Source of the DNA: Actinomycetes bacterium
GTDB lineage: Bacteria; Planctomycetota; Phycisphaerae; JAACET01
Length of the DNA stretch: 64,000 bases
Direction: 5' to 3'
Assembly: GCA_030614915.1 (NCBI GenBank)
Contig: JAUXAG010000010.1
Span: forward strand, 1-64,000
Positions 18,633 through 25,835 of the stretch are shown one piece after another. Below the pieces are notes generated by a model, which was given only the letters and a program-made list of their open reading frames with translations, had not been told where the DNA came from and did not search any database. Numbering within the stretch: position 1 is the stretch's first letter; each line of letters starts with the position of its first letter. The position numbers were made by a program, and so were the translations under genes.

Positions 18633-19091
18633 TCACCGATCCAAACTGTCGGCCGGATCTTCCAGTTCCATTCCTGGTATCTTCCGTTCGATTTTCTCCT
18701 GCCGGCCCGAAAGCAACTCCCGATACCTTTTTTCTGTCCGGTCTCGCCCAAATTTCCAGCCGACCAGCACTGCACAGATTACAGCGACCACCACCATGAA
18801 GCACACCATCACCGCCAGCGGGTAGTTCAGCACCAGACGTATCTTGCCCTCACCTAACGCCAGCAGCGATTCTGTCACATGTTCCTTCTCTGCCTCTTTC
18901 CTCGCCTCTTTTTTCACCGCAGGTTTTTCTGCGGATTTCTTCTCCGTTGTTTTCTTGCCTTTGGGCTGCTCCGCCGGCTTTGGGGCTACCTTACCCATCC
19001 CCACCGGGGCTCGGTAGTCTCCCTCGGAGTTCATCAACTCGAAAAGCGACCTGCTTCGTTTCTTGCCCCTGGCCAATACCGAATACTCCAT
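18633..19091 (-). CDS. Single-pass membrane protein with charged arms
   Basis: I do not recognise a family. The 152-residue protein starts with a basic region (ARGKKRSRS). It continues through a Lys/Ala/Pro/Glu-rich low-complexity segment at about residues 37-70, one membrane helix (LAVMVCFMVVVAVICAVLVGW) at about 93-115, and a charged C-terminus. It ends 26 bp before the PVC signature gene in the same direction, so the two may be co-transcribed. Topology and function are unknown. Confidence 0.7.
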   Translation of the reverse strand: MEYSVLARGKKRSRSLFELMNSEGDYRAPVGMGKVAPKPAEQPKGKKTTEKKSAEKPAVKKEARKEAEKEHVTESLLALGEGKIRLVLNYPLAVMVCFMVVVAVICAVLVGWKFGRDRTEKRYRELLSGRQEKIERKIPGMELEDPADSLDR

Positions 19092-19417: not shown

Positions 19418-21313
19418 TTGGACTTGAATAAATCCCAAACTGTCTCCCTTGGCGCCAGTCTCATCGACTCGGCCGTAACCATCGTCAAGGCCATTTTTGC
19501 CGTAACTACCGGCTCAACTGCCCTTTTGGCCGAAACCTTCCACTCTGGGGCCGATTCCTTGGCCAGCTTTGGTATCTGGTGGTCGCTTCGCTATGAGCGG
19601 GCACGCAAGGCCATGCTCATGGAGAAGGAAGAGGTTGACCAGCTCTCCTCCAGCCGTTGGGGCCTGGAGGCCGAGCAGGTTGAGCGGGCTTGGTCCGCCG
19701 ACCGCTTCCGTTTCTACAAAGAGCACATAGAGAAAAAGTTATCGGTCTCTATCGGTTTGTTGTTTGTTAGTTTAGCTTTTGTAGGCTTTTTCCGAGCCCT
19801 GAGGGCTCCCCAGCCGTTCGCTTTTCAGATTACCTCGGGAATCCCAATTATCGTTATGGGCGGCTTGGCAGGGCTAAGTTACCTTCTCGGCCGATTCGTT
19901 TATCAGGTTTCCACTATAGAGGGCGTTCGAGACCTGGCCACCGGTTCTGCCCGAGCCAAGGCCGATGCCGTGGGTTCTTTGCTCGTAGCCGGGGTCTTTT
20001 TCTGCCGTTATTTTGATATTGCCGGAGACGGCTTAGACCGAACCGTCGGCCTTATCATCTCCGTTATCATTTTCTTGCAGGGCTTGGAGATAATCGTCTC
20101 CACCGTCCGGGCTGGCTTTGAGGATCGACGTTTAGCCGACTTAGAGGCTGACCCACACGCCGTGGGCCGTGAGATGATCTTATCCCGTCTGCTCAGCGGA
20201 AGCGGATGGATATCGCTGGTCGGTTTCGTTTCGGCCGGCTTTGCCATGCAGACCGGACCTCGCCGTCCTTTGCGATTTATTCAGCAACATCTGCCCCTGG
20301 TAGCCGTCTTGACCTTGGCTCTGTTGTGGTTTCAGTCTGCCTTCGTTGTGGTTGGGCCCTCAGACGTCGTTATTCTCGAGCGTTTCGGCCAAGCGGTCAA
20401 TTTGCCCCAGCCTTTGGGCCCCGGATGGCATCTCAAATTCCCTTGGCCCATCGACTGCCAGGTCGTCGTCCCCGTAGCCGAAGTCCAGGAGATCACCGTC
20501 GGATACACCAAGGAGTTCGACGACCCTTACATCCTCTGGCGAATTCCTCATCACGAGACCGAGTACCAGTTGGTTACCGGTGATGGTTCTTTGGTCTCCG
20601 TAAATATGTTCATCCGCTACAGAATTGACAACCCCCGGGACTGGTATCTTACTGCCCGATCTCCCCGCGCCGTTCTGGAAGCCGAGGCCTATCGCTTGCT
20701 CGGCCAAAACATCCGCACCAGGAGCATCTTTTGGGTCATCGGGCCAAACCGACAGGAGCTCGCCCAGATGATCAAGGACCAAATCCAACAGGTCCTTAAC
20801 CAGCAGCGACTAGGTCTGCAGGTCCTTCAGGTCAATTTGCTCAATGCTCACCCCCCCACTTCACTCAATCCTGATGAGAACATAGCCATATCCTACTTGG
20901 AAGTCTTCGATAGTCTCCAGACACGCCAGAAACTCCTCAACGAAGCCGACCTCGTGGCCATTCAGGAAACCAACCTAAAAACTGCTCAGGCCGCCGGAAT
21001 TATTTACGACGCTCAAGCCCAATTCTCGCAAACCATCTCCAAGGCCCAGGGACGAACCGACCGCTTTGGATTGATGATTGAATTGCTCCAGAAGAATCCC
21101 GACTATCTCCCTCTCATCCGGAGCAAATTGAAGCTCAACTATCTGCGAGAAGCATTGGGCAAAGAGACCGGAAAAATCGTCATCGACCCTCAGGCCGTCG
21201 ATAAAAACGTCGAAATCTGGCTCCAGTATCCCCGCAAACCTATTCCCTTCATCGAGGAACCTCCCCTCTTGACCCCCTCGAATATTGGAGCAAAGAGTAC
21301 CCGGGAAAAGTAA
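19418..21313 (+). CDS. CDF-like transporter domain fused to HflK-like SPFH protein
   Basis: A two-part membrane protein of 631 residues. Residues about 1-235 look like the six-helix cation diffusion facilitator domain. Helix 2 has ETFHSGADSLAS with His42 and Asp46, helix 5 has ARAKADAVGSLL, and helix 6 has IISVIIFLQGLEIIVST. The expected helix-5 His of the metal site is Arg179, with Asp183 kept. A seventh helix (about 288-310) leads into an SPFH/Band-7 domain of HflK type from about 312 (GPSDVVILERFG, PGWHLKFPWPID) and a helical tail. Start TTG 19418 has no clear ribosome-binding site. Two more SPFH genes and a metal ATPase follow within 62 bp gaps, suggesting metal homeostasis or membrane quality control. 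Confidence 0.8.
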   Translation: MDLNKSQTVSLGASLIDSAVTIVKAIFAVTTGSTALLAETFHSGADSLASFGIWWSLRYERARKAMLMEKEEVDQLSSSRWGLEAEQVERAWSADRFRFYKEHIEKKLSVSIGLLFVSLAFVGFFRALRAPQPFAFQITSGIPIIVMGGLAGLSYLLGRFVYQVSTIEGVRDLATGSARAKADAVGSLLVAGVFFCRYFDIAGDGLDRTVGLIISVIIFLQGLEIIVSTVRAGFEDRRLADLEADPHAVGREMILSRLLSGSGWISLVGFVSAGFAMQTGPRRPLRFIQQHLPLVAVLTLALLWFQSAFVVVGPSDVVILERFGQAVNLPQPLGPGWHLKFPWPIDCQVVVPVAEVQEITVGYTKEFDDPYILWRIPHHETEYQLVTGDGSLVSVNMFIRYRIDNPRDWYLTARSPRAVLEAEAYRLLGQNIRTRSIFWVIGPNRQELAQMIKDQIQQVLNQQRLGLQVLQVNLLNAHPPTSLNPDENIAISYLEVFDSLQTRQKLLNEADLVAIQETNLKTAQAAGIIYDAQAQFSQTISKAQGRTDRFGLMIELLQKNPDYLPLIRSKLKLNYLREALGKETGKIVIDPQAVDKNVEIWLQYPRKPIPFIEEPPLLTPSNIGAKSTREK

Positions 21314-21331
21314 TCGCAGGAGTGTATTTCC

Positions 21332-22672
21332 ATGAATAAGCTCAGATTGCTCATCGTAGCGGTGATAGTGGTGGCGATCATCTTTGCCGCTCAGTGTCTT
21401 TATGCCGTCAAACCATATCAGGACGTCGTGCAACTGCGCTTCGGCCGAATGGTCCAACCCTACCAAGTATTCAGCCAATACAATCTTTTCCTAAAATGGC
21501 CCAGTTTCATAGACCGCTATGTCGCTATTGACACCCGGCTTCAGATAACCGATGCCGTTCTGGAAACCATCAATACCTCCGGCAAACAGGACCAGAACTT
21601 CCAGGTGGCCGCCGCCTGTTCGGGCTTCTGGCGAGTCAAGGATGCAAAGAAATTCTATACTTCCCTCCTTGCCACCGCCAAGGACGCCGTTCCTGAGCCC
21701 GGCAGCAGCTTTCCTCAACAAGTCAACGACAAAATCCGAGACACCATCCGCTCAAGCGTCAACAGCGTATTCGGTGAGACCCAGCTTTCGGAATTCTTCG
21801 GCTTACCGGAGTTCACTGGAGTAATTAATCAGGATTGTCTGGCCATTGACGGCGATACCTTCCTGCCAAAGGGCCTGAAAATTCGCGGCGGAGAGATCAA
21901 ACGCAGCCCACAGGTCGAACTCAGGATGATCGGCCCCAACGGAAAAGTTATACGCCTAGACGGTCCCCAACGTCGCCAGGTACTCTGTCTGGAAATTGTC
22001 CTTTATGGTTATGGACGTGAGTCCGCTCGGGCTATGACCACCACCCCCTCCCCGGAGGATGCCTCCTACAATTGGCTCGTCAAGCCCGATCCAGGAAGAT
22101 CTGAGGGACTTGCCAGAAAACAAATCACCCTGAGCATCCCCCTAAAGTATATTTCCGACCAAAAGACCACCGCCACGGTGCAAATCGAACACATACAGAA
22201 AAGCATTACCGAGCGAGTCAATACTCAGACCCTTGCCGATTACGGCGTAGAGGTCGCTCAGGTCGAACTTCGCAGACTCAGCTTCCCCGCCACCAGCCTA
22301 AGCAGCGTCTATGACAAAATGAGATCCGAACGGCAACGCATCTCCGCTGCCTATGTCTCTAGTGGACAGACCGAAGCCGACATCCGACTCAGCAGGGCTC
22401 GATTCGTGGCTAGCATGGCCGTGGCCCAGGCCGAGGGGGACGCCAGAAGAATAAAAGGAACTGCCGACGCTCGTGCCGCTGAAATCGCCGCTAAAATTCA
22501 AAAACTCGACCCCGAATTCTACAATTGGCTCCAGAGCTTGGAAACCGCCGCCGAAATACTCAAGAACAAGGCCTGGGTCGTCCTCTCCACCGATCAACCG
22601 GTTATCGACGCCCTGCTCGGCAAACCCCGTCAGAGTTTGCCAAAACCAACAAGTTCAGAAAAAAGCGAATAG
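21332..22672 (+). CDS. SPFH/Band-7 protein, HflC-like
   Basis: An inner-membrane protein with one N-terminal helix (LLIVAVIVVAIIFAAQCLYAV) and an SPFH domain beginning KPYQDVVQLRFGRM. A long helical tail, about residues 320-420, is rich in Ala/Arg/Glu (VASMAVAQAEGDARRIKGTADARAAE split by ARFVA), as in HflC. HflK and HflC assemble as a large cage around FtsH and modulate membrane-protein turnover. It is 446 residues, longer than HflC's usual about 330, with an extended middle. It starts 18 bp after the fusion gene and ends 9 bp before the next SPFH gene. Confidence 0.82.
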   Translation: MNKLRLLIVAVIVVAIIFAAQCLYAVKPYQDVVQLRFGRMVQPYQVFSQYNLFLKWPSFIDRYVAIDTRLQITDAVLETINTSGKQDQNFQVAAACSGFWRVKDAKKFYTSLLATAKDAVPEPGSSFPQQVNDKIRDTIRSSVNSVFGETQLSEFFGLPEFTGVINQDCLAIDGDTFLPKGLKIRGGEIKRSPQVELRMIGPNGKVIRLDGPQRRQVLCLEIVLYGYGRESARAMTTTPSPEDASYNWLVKPDPGRSEGLARKQITLSIPLKYISDQKTTATVQIEHIQKSITERVNTQTLADYGVEVAQVELRRLSFPATSLSSVYDKMRSERQRISAAYVSSGQTEADIRLSRARFVASMAVAQAEGDARRIKGTADARAAEIAAKIQKLDPEFYNWLQSLETAAEILKNKAWVVLSTDQPVIDALLGKPRQSLPKPTSSEKSE

Positions 22673-22681
22673 GTCAAACTT

Positions 22682-23731
22682 ATGCCCACCGCCATCGAGC
22701 GCGAAGCCCAAGCCATCAAGTCTGAAGCCAAGAAGATCCTGCTTATTGTAGTGATCATCTCCTTGGTGGTCTATGCTTTTACCGGCACAGCTCAGGTGGG
22801 CCAGGAACAGACCGGCCTGGTCATCCGCTTCGGCAGGATCGTCAAAACCCTCCAGCCCGGGCTCTATTGGGGATATCCTTGGCCTATCGACAAAGTGGTC
22901 CGCATACCCACCGGCATCTCGCACAGCCTGGAAATCAGAAACTTCAACCTTGATCCCCAGCTCGTCACAGAGAGAAGACGCGAGCTTGAGCAGAGCAATC
23001 GCTTCAAGCAATTGCTCTCCACATCCCGCTCAGCCTTGGCCAATCCCTACCTCGTAACCGGAGACCTTAACGTCGTCCACCTCGATTTGGTCGTTGTTTA
23101 CAATATCACCGACCCTGAGGCCTATTACTTGGCCGCCGGGGATCTCCCAGACGTTTCCCAAACCAACGTTCAGAACATTGCCCGCAAGATTATTGCCAGT
23201 GCCCTTATCCAGACCGTCGCTCAAATGGAGATCATGGACGTCCTTCGTGAAAGCCAAGCCATCCAGCGCAGCGTACAAGAAATTGCCCAACCACAATTTG
23301 ACCGCTTAGAATTGGGCATAACCATCAGAGAGGCTGATGCAGTTAGAGTAACCAACTCTCTAGTGCCCACCCCAGTGCAAGATGTTTTCAACCGGGTTAC
23401 TACCGCTATGCAGGCTAGGGAGAACCTGGTCTATATAGCCAAGACCGCCGCTAAACGTATTGAAGATGGAGCCACCGCCCAAGTGGCTGCAATTCTCGCC
23501 GAGGCTAATACTTACGCCGAGGCCACCGTCAAACAGGCCTACGGTGATGCCCAACGTTATACCGAACTGATTAATGAATATCACAAAGGAGGCGAAGTCG
23601 TCCGCGATCGCCTCCGCTACGAAAAACTAGCCGAGGTCGCTCCCTATTTCAAGGCCCCGACCATCTACGCTATGCCAGATACTGATGGCAAACAAAAATT
23701 GGTCATTACTATCCCGGGCAAGCCCGAATAA
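22682..23731 (+). CDS. SPFH/Band-7 protein, HflK-like
   Basis: A 349-residue protein with an N-terminal amphipathic stretch and one membrane helix (ILLIVVIISLVVYAFTG). Its SPFH domain starts VGQEQTGLVIRFGR and continues PGLYWGYPWPIDKV, very like HflK. The C-terminal helical segment has AAILAEANTYAEATV. It is the third SPFH protein in a row. A three-member set, one fused to a CDF-like domain, departs from the usual HflK-HflC pair. FtsH is not in the window. Confidence 0.82.
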   Translation: MPTAIEREAQAIKSEAKKILLIVVIISLVVYAFTGTAQVGQEQTGLVIRFGRIVKTLQPGLYWGYPWPIDKVVRIPTGISHSLEIRNFNLDPQLVTERRRELEQSNRFKQLLSTSRSALANPYLVTGDLNVVHLDLVVVYNITDPEAYYLAAGDLPDVSQTNVQNIARKIIASALIQTVAQMEIMDVLRESQAIQRSVQEIAQPQFDRLELGITIREADAVRVTNSLVPTPVQDVFNRVTTAMQARENLVYIAKTAAKRIEDGATAQVAAILAEANTYAEATVKQAYGDAQRYTELINEYHKGGEVVRDRLRYEKLAEVAPYFKAPTIYAMPDTDGKQKLVITIPGKPE

Positions 23732-23774
23732 ACCGCTCCCTTCGTTGCCCCGCAGTTGTTGAGCAAAGCAAACC

Positions 23775-25835
23775 ATGAGTAACTCACAAGATTACAGCCC
23801 CACCAATAGCCATACCCCCGGTCCAGCCGCCGGCAGCCCCCACGTACATACTCTCGCTTGCGGCTGCCCCGACGCCCAGCAGGACCAGACTCATCTCTAC
23901 GCTCACGGTCATTTGCACCTGACCAGCAGGACCAAGGCCGTGGTCATGCCCCTCTCTTTGGCCCTGCTCATTGCCGGCTGGATCATCTATTGGCTTTTCC
24001 CCTCTCAGAGGTTCATGGCTGATATCTATGCCCTTATCTTGGCCGCCCTCTGTGGCCTGCCCATCATCATCGGCGCCTTGAAGGAGTTAGCCGCCGGCCG
24101 CGCAGGCCTAAGCCTCTTGGTCGCTTTAGCCGTCATCGGAGCCGTCTCTATCGGAGATTACCTTGAGGCCGGCACCGTAGCCTTCATCTTGCAGTTGGCT
24201 ATTCTTGTCGAGGAGTTGGCCGAACGAGGGGCCACCAGTGCCGTAACTGCTCTGGCCCGCCTGGCTCCACCCACTGCCCTGGTCCGCAGGGAAGGCACTG
24301 AGCAGACCATCCCCGCCGAGCAACTGCGCCCCGCTGACAGGATGATTCTCCGTCCTGGCGACCGCATCCCCGCCGACGGACAGCTCCTCGTCGGCTCGAC
24401 CAGTATTGACCAGTCCATGATTTCCGGTGAAGCTCTCCCCGTCGATCGTACTGTCGGCGACGAGGTCTTAGCTGGCACCATCAACCTCACCGGTGCTGTC
24501 GAGGTCGATGTCACCCGCGTCGGCGACGACTCCGCTTTGGGCAACATCATCCAGTTGGTCCGCCGGGCCCAGACATATCAGCCCGAGATCATCCGTCTGG
24601 CCGACCGATTCTTTGCCTATTACACCCCGGTGATGGTCGTCCTCGCCGTAGTTGTCTACTGGTTCACCCAGGACCCCACCCGCACCATCAGCATGTTCCT
24701 GGTCGGCTGTGCCTGTCCTATTCTGCTCAGTTCTCCGATCGCTATATGCATGGCCCTCTTCCGCGCCGGCCAAGCTGGCGTGCTGGTAAAGGCAGGCCCC
24801 TTCATTGAGGCCTCAGCCAATGTCCGCACCGTCGTCTTCGACAAGACCGGCACCTTGACCACCGGAAAGTTCCATTTGCAGGCCGTTCTTCCCCGTCCCG
24901 ACCAAGACCAAGATACCGTCCTTACCTGGGCCGCCTCTGCCGAGCAGCGCTCCAACCACCCCTTGGCTCAAACCATCGTCAACGAAGCTCTCGACCGCCA
25001 GCTTACCCTCACCGAACCCGAGAATTTTGAAGTCCTTGAGGGCATGGGCGTCCGGGCCACCATTGATGGCAAGCGTGTGGCCATTGGTTCCCGGCGGGTC
25101 TTGCTCGACGAGCTTCACCTGGAGGAATTGCCCGACGAGCTGGCCGAATGGCAGGGTTTGGAAAGCCCCACCGAGAGTATTCCTGTATTCGTCATGGTTG
25201 ACGGCCAGGTCCTCGGCACCCTTCTCTTGGCTGACCAGATTCGCCCCGAGGCCTCGGCGGTCTGTGCTCAGTTGCGGGCTCAGGGCATCCGCCGCATCTG
25301 TTTGCTTACCGGCGACCGCAAGGCTGCCGTTCAGCACGTCGCCCAGGCCATCGGCGCCAACGATGCCCAGGGCGAACTCCTACCCGCCGAAAAGGTCGAA
25401 TACCTTCGCAATCTCCAGCAGGCTGGCCACACCGTTGCCATGCTCGGCGACGGCATCAACGATGCTCCTTCGCTCACCGTGGCGGATATCGGCGTTGCCA
25501 TGGGCATTCACGGCACCGACGTAGCCACCGAGGCCTCCGACGCCGTCCTCCTTCAGGACGACCTCAAGCGTTTACCTTTCCTCATCGCCTTATCCAAAGC
25601 TACTCACCGAGCCATCGTCCAGAACCTCTTGATGGCCGTGCTCATCAACACCGTAGCCATCTTTTTTGCCGCCGCCGGCTATTTACCCCCCTGGGCCGCA
25701 GCCATCATTCACAACCTTGGCGGAGTCCTCGTCTTCCTCAACAGCTTCCGCTTAGCCAACTTCAAATGGCAGTTCGCCACCCGACGCCTCCCCGCCGCTT
25801 CCGCCTCTGCTCCACCCCCGCTCCCTACTATCTGA
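23775..25835 (+). CDS. Heavy-metal P-type (P1B) ATPase with CACP motif
   Basis: An ATP-driven metal exporter in the inner membrane. It has Asp356 in VFDKTGTLTTG (phosphorylation site), SGEALP (actuator), the HP motif in RSNHPLAQT and GDGINDAPSL. Six to eight membrane helices are visible. The His/Cys-rich N-terminus (HVHTLACGCPD, HLYAHGHLHL) probably binds metal and replaces an HMA domain. The membrane motif reads VGCACPILLSSP where ZntA-like enzymes have GCPCALVISTP, so the expected CPC is CAC followed by Pro315. The 43-bp gap and same strand tie it to the SPFH genes. The substrate is probably Zn, Cd, Co or a similar divalent ion. Confidence 0.88.
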   Translation: MSNSQDYSPTNSHTPGPAAGSPHVHTLACGCPDAQQDQTHLYAHGHLHLTSRTKAVVMPLSLALLIAGWIIYWLFPSQRFMADIYALILAALCGLPIIIGALKELAAGRAGLSLLVALAVIGAVSIGDYLEAGTVAFILQLAILVEELAERGATSAVTALARLAPPTALVRREGTEQTIPAEQLRPADRMILRPGDRIPADGQLLVGSTSIDQSMISGEALPVDRTVGDEVLAGTINLTGAVEVDVTRVGDDSALGNIIQLVRRAQTYQPEIIRLADRFFAYYTPVMVVLAVVVYWFTQDPTRTISMFLVGCACPILLSSPIAICMALFRAGQAGVLVKAGPFIEASANVRTVVFDKTGTLTTGKFHLQAVLPRPDQDQDTVLTWAASAEQRSNHPLAQTIVNEALDRQLTLTEPENFEVLEGMGVRATIDGKRVAIGSRRVLLDELHLEELPDELAEWQGLESPTESIPVFVMVDGQVLGTLLLADQIRPEASAVCAQLRAQGIRRICLLTGDRKAAVQHVAQAIGANDAQGELLPAEKVEYLRNLQQAGHTVAMLGDGINDAPSLTVADIGVAMGIHGTDVATEASDAVLLQDDLKRLPFLIALSKATHRAIVQNLLMAVLINTVAIFFAAAGYLPPWAAAIIHNLGGVLVFLNSFRLANFKWQFATRRLPAASASAPPPLPTI

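Follow-up and report, generated by a model that had tools for sequence, protein, structure and literature searches.

The closest described counterpart of the locus reported here is the hmtA locus of Pseudomonas aeruginosa, in which an HflK-like, an HflC-like and a further SPFH gene are followed by the gene of a P-type ATPase. The ATPase, PA2435, is HmtA, a reported zinc and copper importer, and PA2437-PA2439 are annotated as members of the HflC/HflK family (PMC4542158); according to a review, import by HmtA still needs confirmation (PMC10393844). Expression of PA2434-PA2439 is raised 5.6-14.4 fold in a zinc-limited znuA mutant (PMC4542158), the PA2439 promoter is bound by Zur (PMC8531726), and the proteins of the locus increase under zinc depletion, as seen by proteomics (PMC11761036).

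The SPFH genes of this locus appear to be the PaFlo5-7 genes of strain PA14. In a 2026 paper on PaFlo5-7 no ATPase is named and the deletion of P. aeruginosa SPFH genes has no strong phenotype; its available part does not mention zinc limitation (PMC13086221). The linkage of HmtA to HflK/HflC is left uninterpreted in the zinc papers and was not found in the SPFH literature searched; papers joining HflK or SPFH proteins with cation diffusion facilitators (CDF), or HmtA with SPFH proteins, were likewise not found. Of the system described here, which is confirmed and widely conserved, the literature already shows a part under the name of the hmtA locus; its CDF relic has gone unrecognised, and transporter fusions recur.

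The window, a stretch of 64,000 nucleotides, belongs to a 2.56 Mb assembly of 36 contigs. The 16S gene of this genome differs from the Pla886 probe site at one position and from the Pla46 site at three, which points weakly to Planctomycetota as the phylum. The locus within the window is probably an early branch of a widespread operon type that has mostly escaped recognition, composed of an SPFH trio (subunits A, B and C) and its own P1B ATPase. The hmtA locus (PA2439-PA2435) is the one studied example of this type; the order PA2439-PA2438-PA2437-PA2435 is that of the close Pseudomonas loci retrieved, and the equivalence of PA2439 to subunit A is taken from the published annotation, synteny and the P. 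nitroreducens sequence. Four open reading frames lie head to tail on one strand (19418-25835, +), where the sequence-only reading had placed them, and the two SPFH genes and the P1B ATPase that it noted downstream of a fused first gene follow at the short gaps it described (18, 9 and 43 nt):

19418..21313, + strand: gene 1 (subunit A), CDF-like domain plus HflK-like SPFH domain, 631 aa, TTG start (PF01545, PF01145; TIGR01933 hflK below cut-off; AlphaFold pLDDT 78.6)
19454..20110, + strand: CDF-like six-helix membrane domain of gene 1, residues 13-231 (Pfam; model), with His42, Asp46 and Asp183 kept and Arg179 replacing His/Asp
20261..20335, + strand: predicted seventh helix of gene 1, residues 282-306, running into the SPFH domain (secondary structure of the model)
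20348..20863, + strand: SPFH/Band_7 domain of gene 1, residues 311-482 (PF01145; HflK 7vhq, E 1.5e-14)
20882..21094, + strand: long C-terminal helix of gene 1, residues 489-559, like the HflK/C coiled coils (model)
21332..22672, + strand: gene 2 (subunit B), HflC-like SPFH protein, 446 aa (TIGR01932 E 1.6e-37, below cut-off; HflC side of the SPFH tree, support 100)
22682..23731, + strand: gene 3 (subunit C), HflK-like SPFH protein, 349 aa (TIGR01933 E 7.4e-39, below cut-off; C clade of ATPase-linked trios, support 96)
23775..25835, + strand: gene 4, P1B-type (heavy-metal) P-type ATPase, 686 aa (TIGR01525; no HMA domain found by Pfam)
24708..24737, + strand: membrane metal motif CACPILLSSP of gene 4, CAC where P1B ATPases have CPC (alignment with cluster ATPases)
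25710..25751, + strand: C-terminal helix motif HNLGGVLVFLNSFR of gene 4, the HN...N(S/A).R signature of SPFH-linked ATPases (alignment with cluster ATPases)

The fusion of a CDF-like to an HflK-like SPFH domain in gene 1, first proposed without database searches, is borne out by Pfam: Cation_efflux matches residues 13-231 with 48.8 bits (cut-off 26.6, E 9.7e-13) and Band_7 matches residues 311-482 (E 8.2e-13), both above cut-off. In the AlphaFold models of gene 1 and of the P. nitroreducens protein (pLDDT 77.1) an N-terminal helical bundle is followed by a further helix and the SPFH domain; the even number of helices with one more crossing would place the SPFH domain in the periplasm (predicted topology). 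The gene 1 model contains a YiiP-like transmembrane fold (8f6e, TMt 0.60, rmsd 4.5, E 6e-4), YiiP being the only non-SPFH transporter among its best PDB matches.

Gene 1 thus resembles the CDFs (YiiP/FieF, TIGR01297) in the six-helix transmembrane fold and in three of the four ligands, but differs from them in its fusion to SPFH and in the absence of the cytoplasmic C-terminal domain. The four-ligand CDF site (H/D-x3-D in TM2 and TM5) is incomplete, with H42, D46 and D183 but R179, all four residues being as read earlier from the sequence. With Arg179 in the site and no cytoplasmic domain, gene 1 is unlikely to act as a normal CDF exporter, while the three ligands that are kept may still permit residual metal binding.

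The SPFH domain (PF01145) is above cut-off in each of the three SPFH proteins, whereas all three miss the NCBIfam equivalog cut-offs (hflK, 119.9 and 133.7 against 159.4; hflC, 129.1 against 134.4). Like E. coli HflK-HflC, the window proteins show the SPFH fold, HflK/HflC pairing and a long C-terminal helix; unlike it, the trio has three subunits, one of them with an extra six-helix N-terminal domain, and is linked to a P-type ATPase. In the SPFH tree the other ATPase-linked A subunits together form the sister group of gene 1 (support 99), and in the ATPase tree the SPFH-linked ATPases form one clade with the window ATPase at its base (support 94), although the window sequences are long branches and their exact position is unsure.

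Gene 4 matches TIGR01525 with 554.2 bits (cut-off 346.25, E 4e-166) and shares DKTGT and other core motifs with P1B ATPases such as HmtA, ZntA and CoaT. It differs from these in that Pfam finds no HMA domain, in the HN...N(S/A).R motif near the C-terminus, which is common to most SPFH-linked ATPases, and in the membrane metal motif, which is CAC and not of the CPC, CPH or SPC type. Several lineages of the same phylum have eroded CPC to CPG, CPS, CPT or TPC. An eroded CPC motif is odd for a soft-metal pump, an observation that counts against a cage around a metal ATPase.

The same fusion and neighbourhood were sought in other genomes, as the sequence-only reading had advised, and were found, with the ATPase syntenic across at least two phyla. 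A contig scan across genomes with the window protein alone retrieved no relative; an alignment query was needed. In the same-phylum survey 118 of 294 genomes matched gene 1, many of them via ordinary HflK. Fused gene, ATPase and B- and C-like genes occur together in 28 of 40 same-phylum loci, which were picked for long first genes, so that this fraction is no estimate of prevalence. At four of the 28 (L044, L047, L052 and L062) the ATPase gene is shifted upstream, still close. ABC ATPase and ABC-2 permease genes are added at many same-phylum loci, hinting at a wider function.

A genome scan gave 432 relatives, of which 80, nearly all from Pseudomonas, Burkholderia and Paraburkholderia, were kept; with six plasmid loci added, the order A-B-C-ATPase is found in 75 of 86 Pseudomonadota loci. 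Plasmid copies with this order occur in Burkholderia ubonensis, Paraburkholderia sprentiae, Klebsiella aerogenes and Rhizobium tumorigenes. Since the four genes recur at the 28 same-phylum and 75 Pseudomonadota loci, a chance neighbourhood is excluded; A, C and the ATPase share common ancestry across the loci. The P. sprentiae plasmid locus adjoins a zinc ABC transporter and a PCu(A)C gene. A zinc ABC permease is rejected as a general neighbour, since almost no other locus has such genes of the P. sprentiae type at its side.

The N-terminal domain of the A subunits is the descendant of a CDF transporter, its metal ligands usually lost. Pfam recognises Cation_efflux in only 2 of the 40 fused same-phylum proteins (window and L050), and nearly all closer relatives of gene 1 have lost the ligand residues. 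In profile comparisons the window domain matches CDFs with an E of 4e-9, and a profile built from 21 relatives, the window sequence excluded, matches canonical CDFs along some 190 columns (E 7e-7, against 0.23 for the reversed control). The proteobacterial N-terminal domains join via a divergent group (7e-12) and not directly to CDF; for the P. nitroreducens model YiiP is the best non-SPFH, non-vault fold, a weak match (E 0.016, prob 0.99). The earlier suspicion that the CDF transport role is changed or lost fits these relatives, most of which lack all four ligands and retain the fold. The window protein, with a more CDF-like N-terminal domain than that of the hmtA locus, is the sequence link that exposes a transporter fold probably turned scaffold, which is of evolutionary interest.

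Linkage of SPFH trios to metal transporters recurs outside this clade, because separate trios carry an intact CDF or the SO_0444 Cu/Zn permease. Intact CDF domains are found in separate trios at two loci, L050 and, in Aquibium, L111; at the latter the intact CDF-HflK fusion is accompanied by genes for HflC, HflK, a heavy-metal ATPase, PCu(A)C and SCO. An AU test neither rejects nor establishes one common origin for the CDF fusions of the window, L050 and L111 (p 0.127). An SO_0444/ArsP_1 permease domain (Pfam) occurs in 5 of the 40 fused same-phylum proteins (e.g., L059 and L064), and as in the window the first subunit of the trio bears a metal transporter; the transporter fold is, however, unrelated and no P1B ATPase lies nearby. 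A ZIP gene stands before the SO_0444-SPFH gene of L059, and gene A of L038 has a gene for an ArsP_1 permease ahead of it. L050, L111 and the SO_0444 fusions fall outside the ATPase-linked clade of the SPFH tree. A search of 299 Pseudomonadota genomes with the Aquibium fusion gave, among the matches listed, HflK-domain matches only, and a plasmid search with an SO_0444-SPFH fusion gave no record covering 80% of it, the rows shown being separate HflK or SO_0444 genes.

The published data on the hmtA locus lean towards zinc limitation as its condition. A palindrome resembling the Zur box, with a score of at least 10 of 14, is present upstream of 55 of 83 loci, many Pseudomonas copies among them, as against 6% of shuffles, and the strongest matches lie mostly 40-95 bp upstream of the start used. 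Upstream of the window genes, in contrast to the Zur-bound promoter of P. aeruginosa, the best score is 8 of 14, the commonest chance score, with a motif of the Pseudomonas type only. The sequence-only reading had suggested an SPFH cage for a metal exporter or for metal sensing. The best reading is still a metal transporter with an SPFH assembly of its own, whereas export or sensing is not supported as stated, because the hmtA locus has a reported zinc and copper importer, induction by zinc depletion and a Zur-bound promoter.

On balance we consider it probable, with modest confidence, that the locus is an early-branching operon of the hmtA type, that its SPFH proteins form a cage reserved for a metal P-type ATPase, and that a CDF relic whose transport is lost or weakened acts as the adaptor. 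On the model of HflKC and its cage around FtsH, subunits A, B and C would build a periplasmic HflKC-like cage or ring that surrounds the ATPase or gathers it into clusters, in place of FtsH or in addition to it; the same analogy makes a ring of three subunits plausible. The CDF relic would serve as the membrane adaptor that docks the ATPase, and the closed membrane patch could control the movement of zinc or copper or protect the ATPase. If true, this would provide a defined client, a metal-pumping ATPase, for SPFH proteins, about whose physiological roles in bacteria little is known, and would explain the HflK/HflC genes beside the reported importer HmtA. More tentatively, SPFH cages for metal transport may have arisen in bacteria repeatedly, each time with a CDF or an SO_0444 permease fused to one of the subunits; in the most frequent lineage this transporter would then have decayed to a docking platform for an HmtA-type P1B ATPase, giving a membrane-enclosed compartment for metal handling. 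The absence of a strong phenotype in the P. aeruginosa SPFH deletions counts against a cage, though zinc limitation is not mentioned in the available part of the 2026 study (PMC13086221).

An extra FtsH-regulating HflKC complex, with the ATPase as a protein client of quality control and the CDF relic as a mere anchor of the ring, is a rather unlikely alternative. All three SPFH proteins resemble HflK or HflC, and E. coli HflKC encloses FtsH (PDB 7wi3, 9cz2); but an ordinary HflKC-like pair is encoded on another contig of the same genome, apart from the cluster, and the constant neighbour of the trio is one ATPase lineage and not an assortment of membrane proteins. Gene 4 is the sole PF00122 match in the window genome, which by this family has no second P-type ATPase.

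It is doubtful that the window's CDF domain actively exports metal into the SPFH chamber while the ATPase works on the same pool. The three site residues kept, the YiiP-like model and the intact CDF of the related trios L050 and L111, the latter accompanied by P-type ATPase, PCu(A)C and SCO genes, speak for such a pump; the replaced ligand and absent C-terminal domain noted above, a TIGR01297 score of 38.2 bits (below the cut-off of 82.35) and the loss of the site in nearly all closer relatives speak against it. A canonical CDF is encoded separately in the window genome.

Similarly doubtful is a drift of the SPFH-linked ATPases away from soft-metal transport, with the complex handling another substrate or sensing the state of the membrane, together with ABC-2 transporters in many relatives. 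The repeated loss of CPC and the conserved ABC-2 ATPase and permease neighbours would fit this; however, CPC is kept in 85 of 85 Pseudomonadota ATPase rows of the alignment, among them all Pseudomonas copies retrieved, the P. aeruginosa locus is zinc-regulated (PMC4542158), and separate trios are tied to Cu/Zn permeases. That the four genes are neighbours only, with no joint function, is highly improbable: nothing besides general operon stacking favours it, and it is contradicted by a synteny in which two phyla share the gene order, on plasmids as well as on chromosomes, and the genes stay close even after rearrangement.

Divergently oriented from the window operon lies a small gene whose product has no match in Pfam, and the P1B ATPase of the operon carries an eroded form of CPC, the usual P1B membrane metal motif.

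18633-19091 (minus strand): product of the small gene, rich in lysine and with a single hydrophobic stretch
24708-24737: eroded CPC motif of the window ATPase

The CPC motif has been eroded repeatedly in the SPFH-linked P1B ATPases, with the variants CAC, CPG, CPS, CPT and TPC; among the related loci from the window's phylum the erosion is found in L037, L038-L040, L047, L048, L062 and L068-L070.

In this phylum ABC ATPase and ABC-2 permease genes are conserved around the SPFH-ATPase cluster (L042, L045, L049, L052, L055, L056, L062, L063, L066 and others), at some loci together with a large protein without assignment. None of these genes directly adjoins the cluster of the window. An ArsP_1-type permease gene is located immediately 5' of the cluster in L038, L039 and L040 (assignment tested with Pfam for L038 only).

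The first SPFH gene of L057, L058, L059, L064 and L071 is a fusion of an SO_0444-family Cu/Zn permease with an HflK-like SPFH domain, and genes resembling hflC and hflK come next on its 3' side. Immediately 5' of the fusion gene in L059 lies a gene for a ZIP transporter.

A CDF-HflK fusion with intact CDF, annotated so far as HflK only, is encoded on a conjugative plasmid of Aquibium oceanicum. Its cluster there (L111:4309-14873) also contains genes for PCu(A)C, SCO and DsbB-type proteins and for a heavy-metal ATPase.
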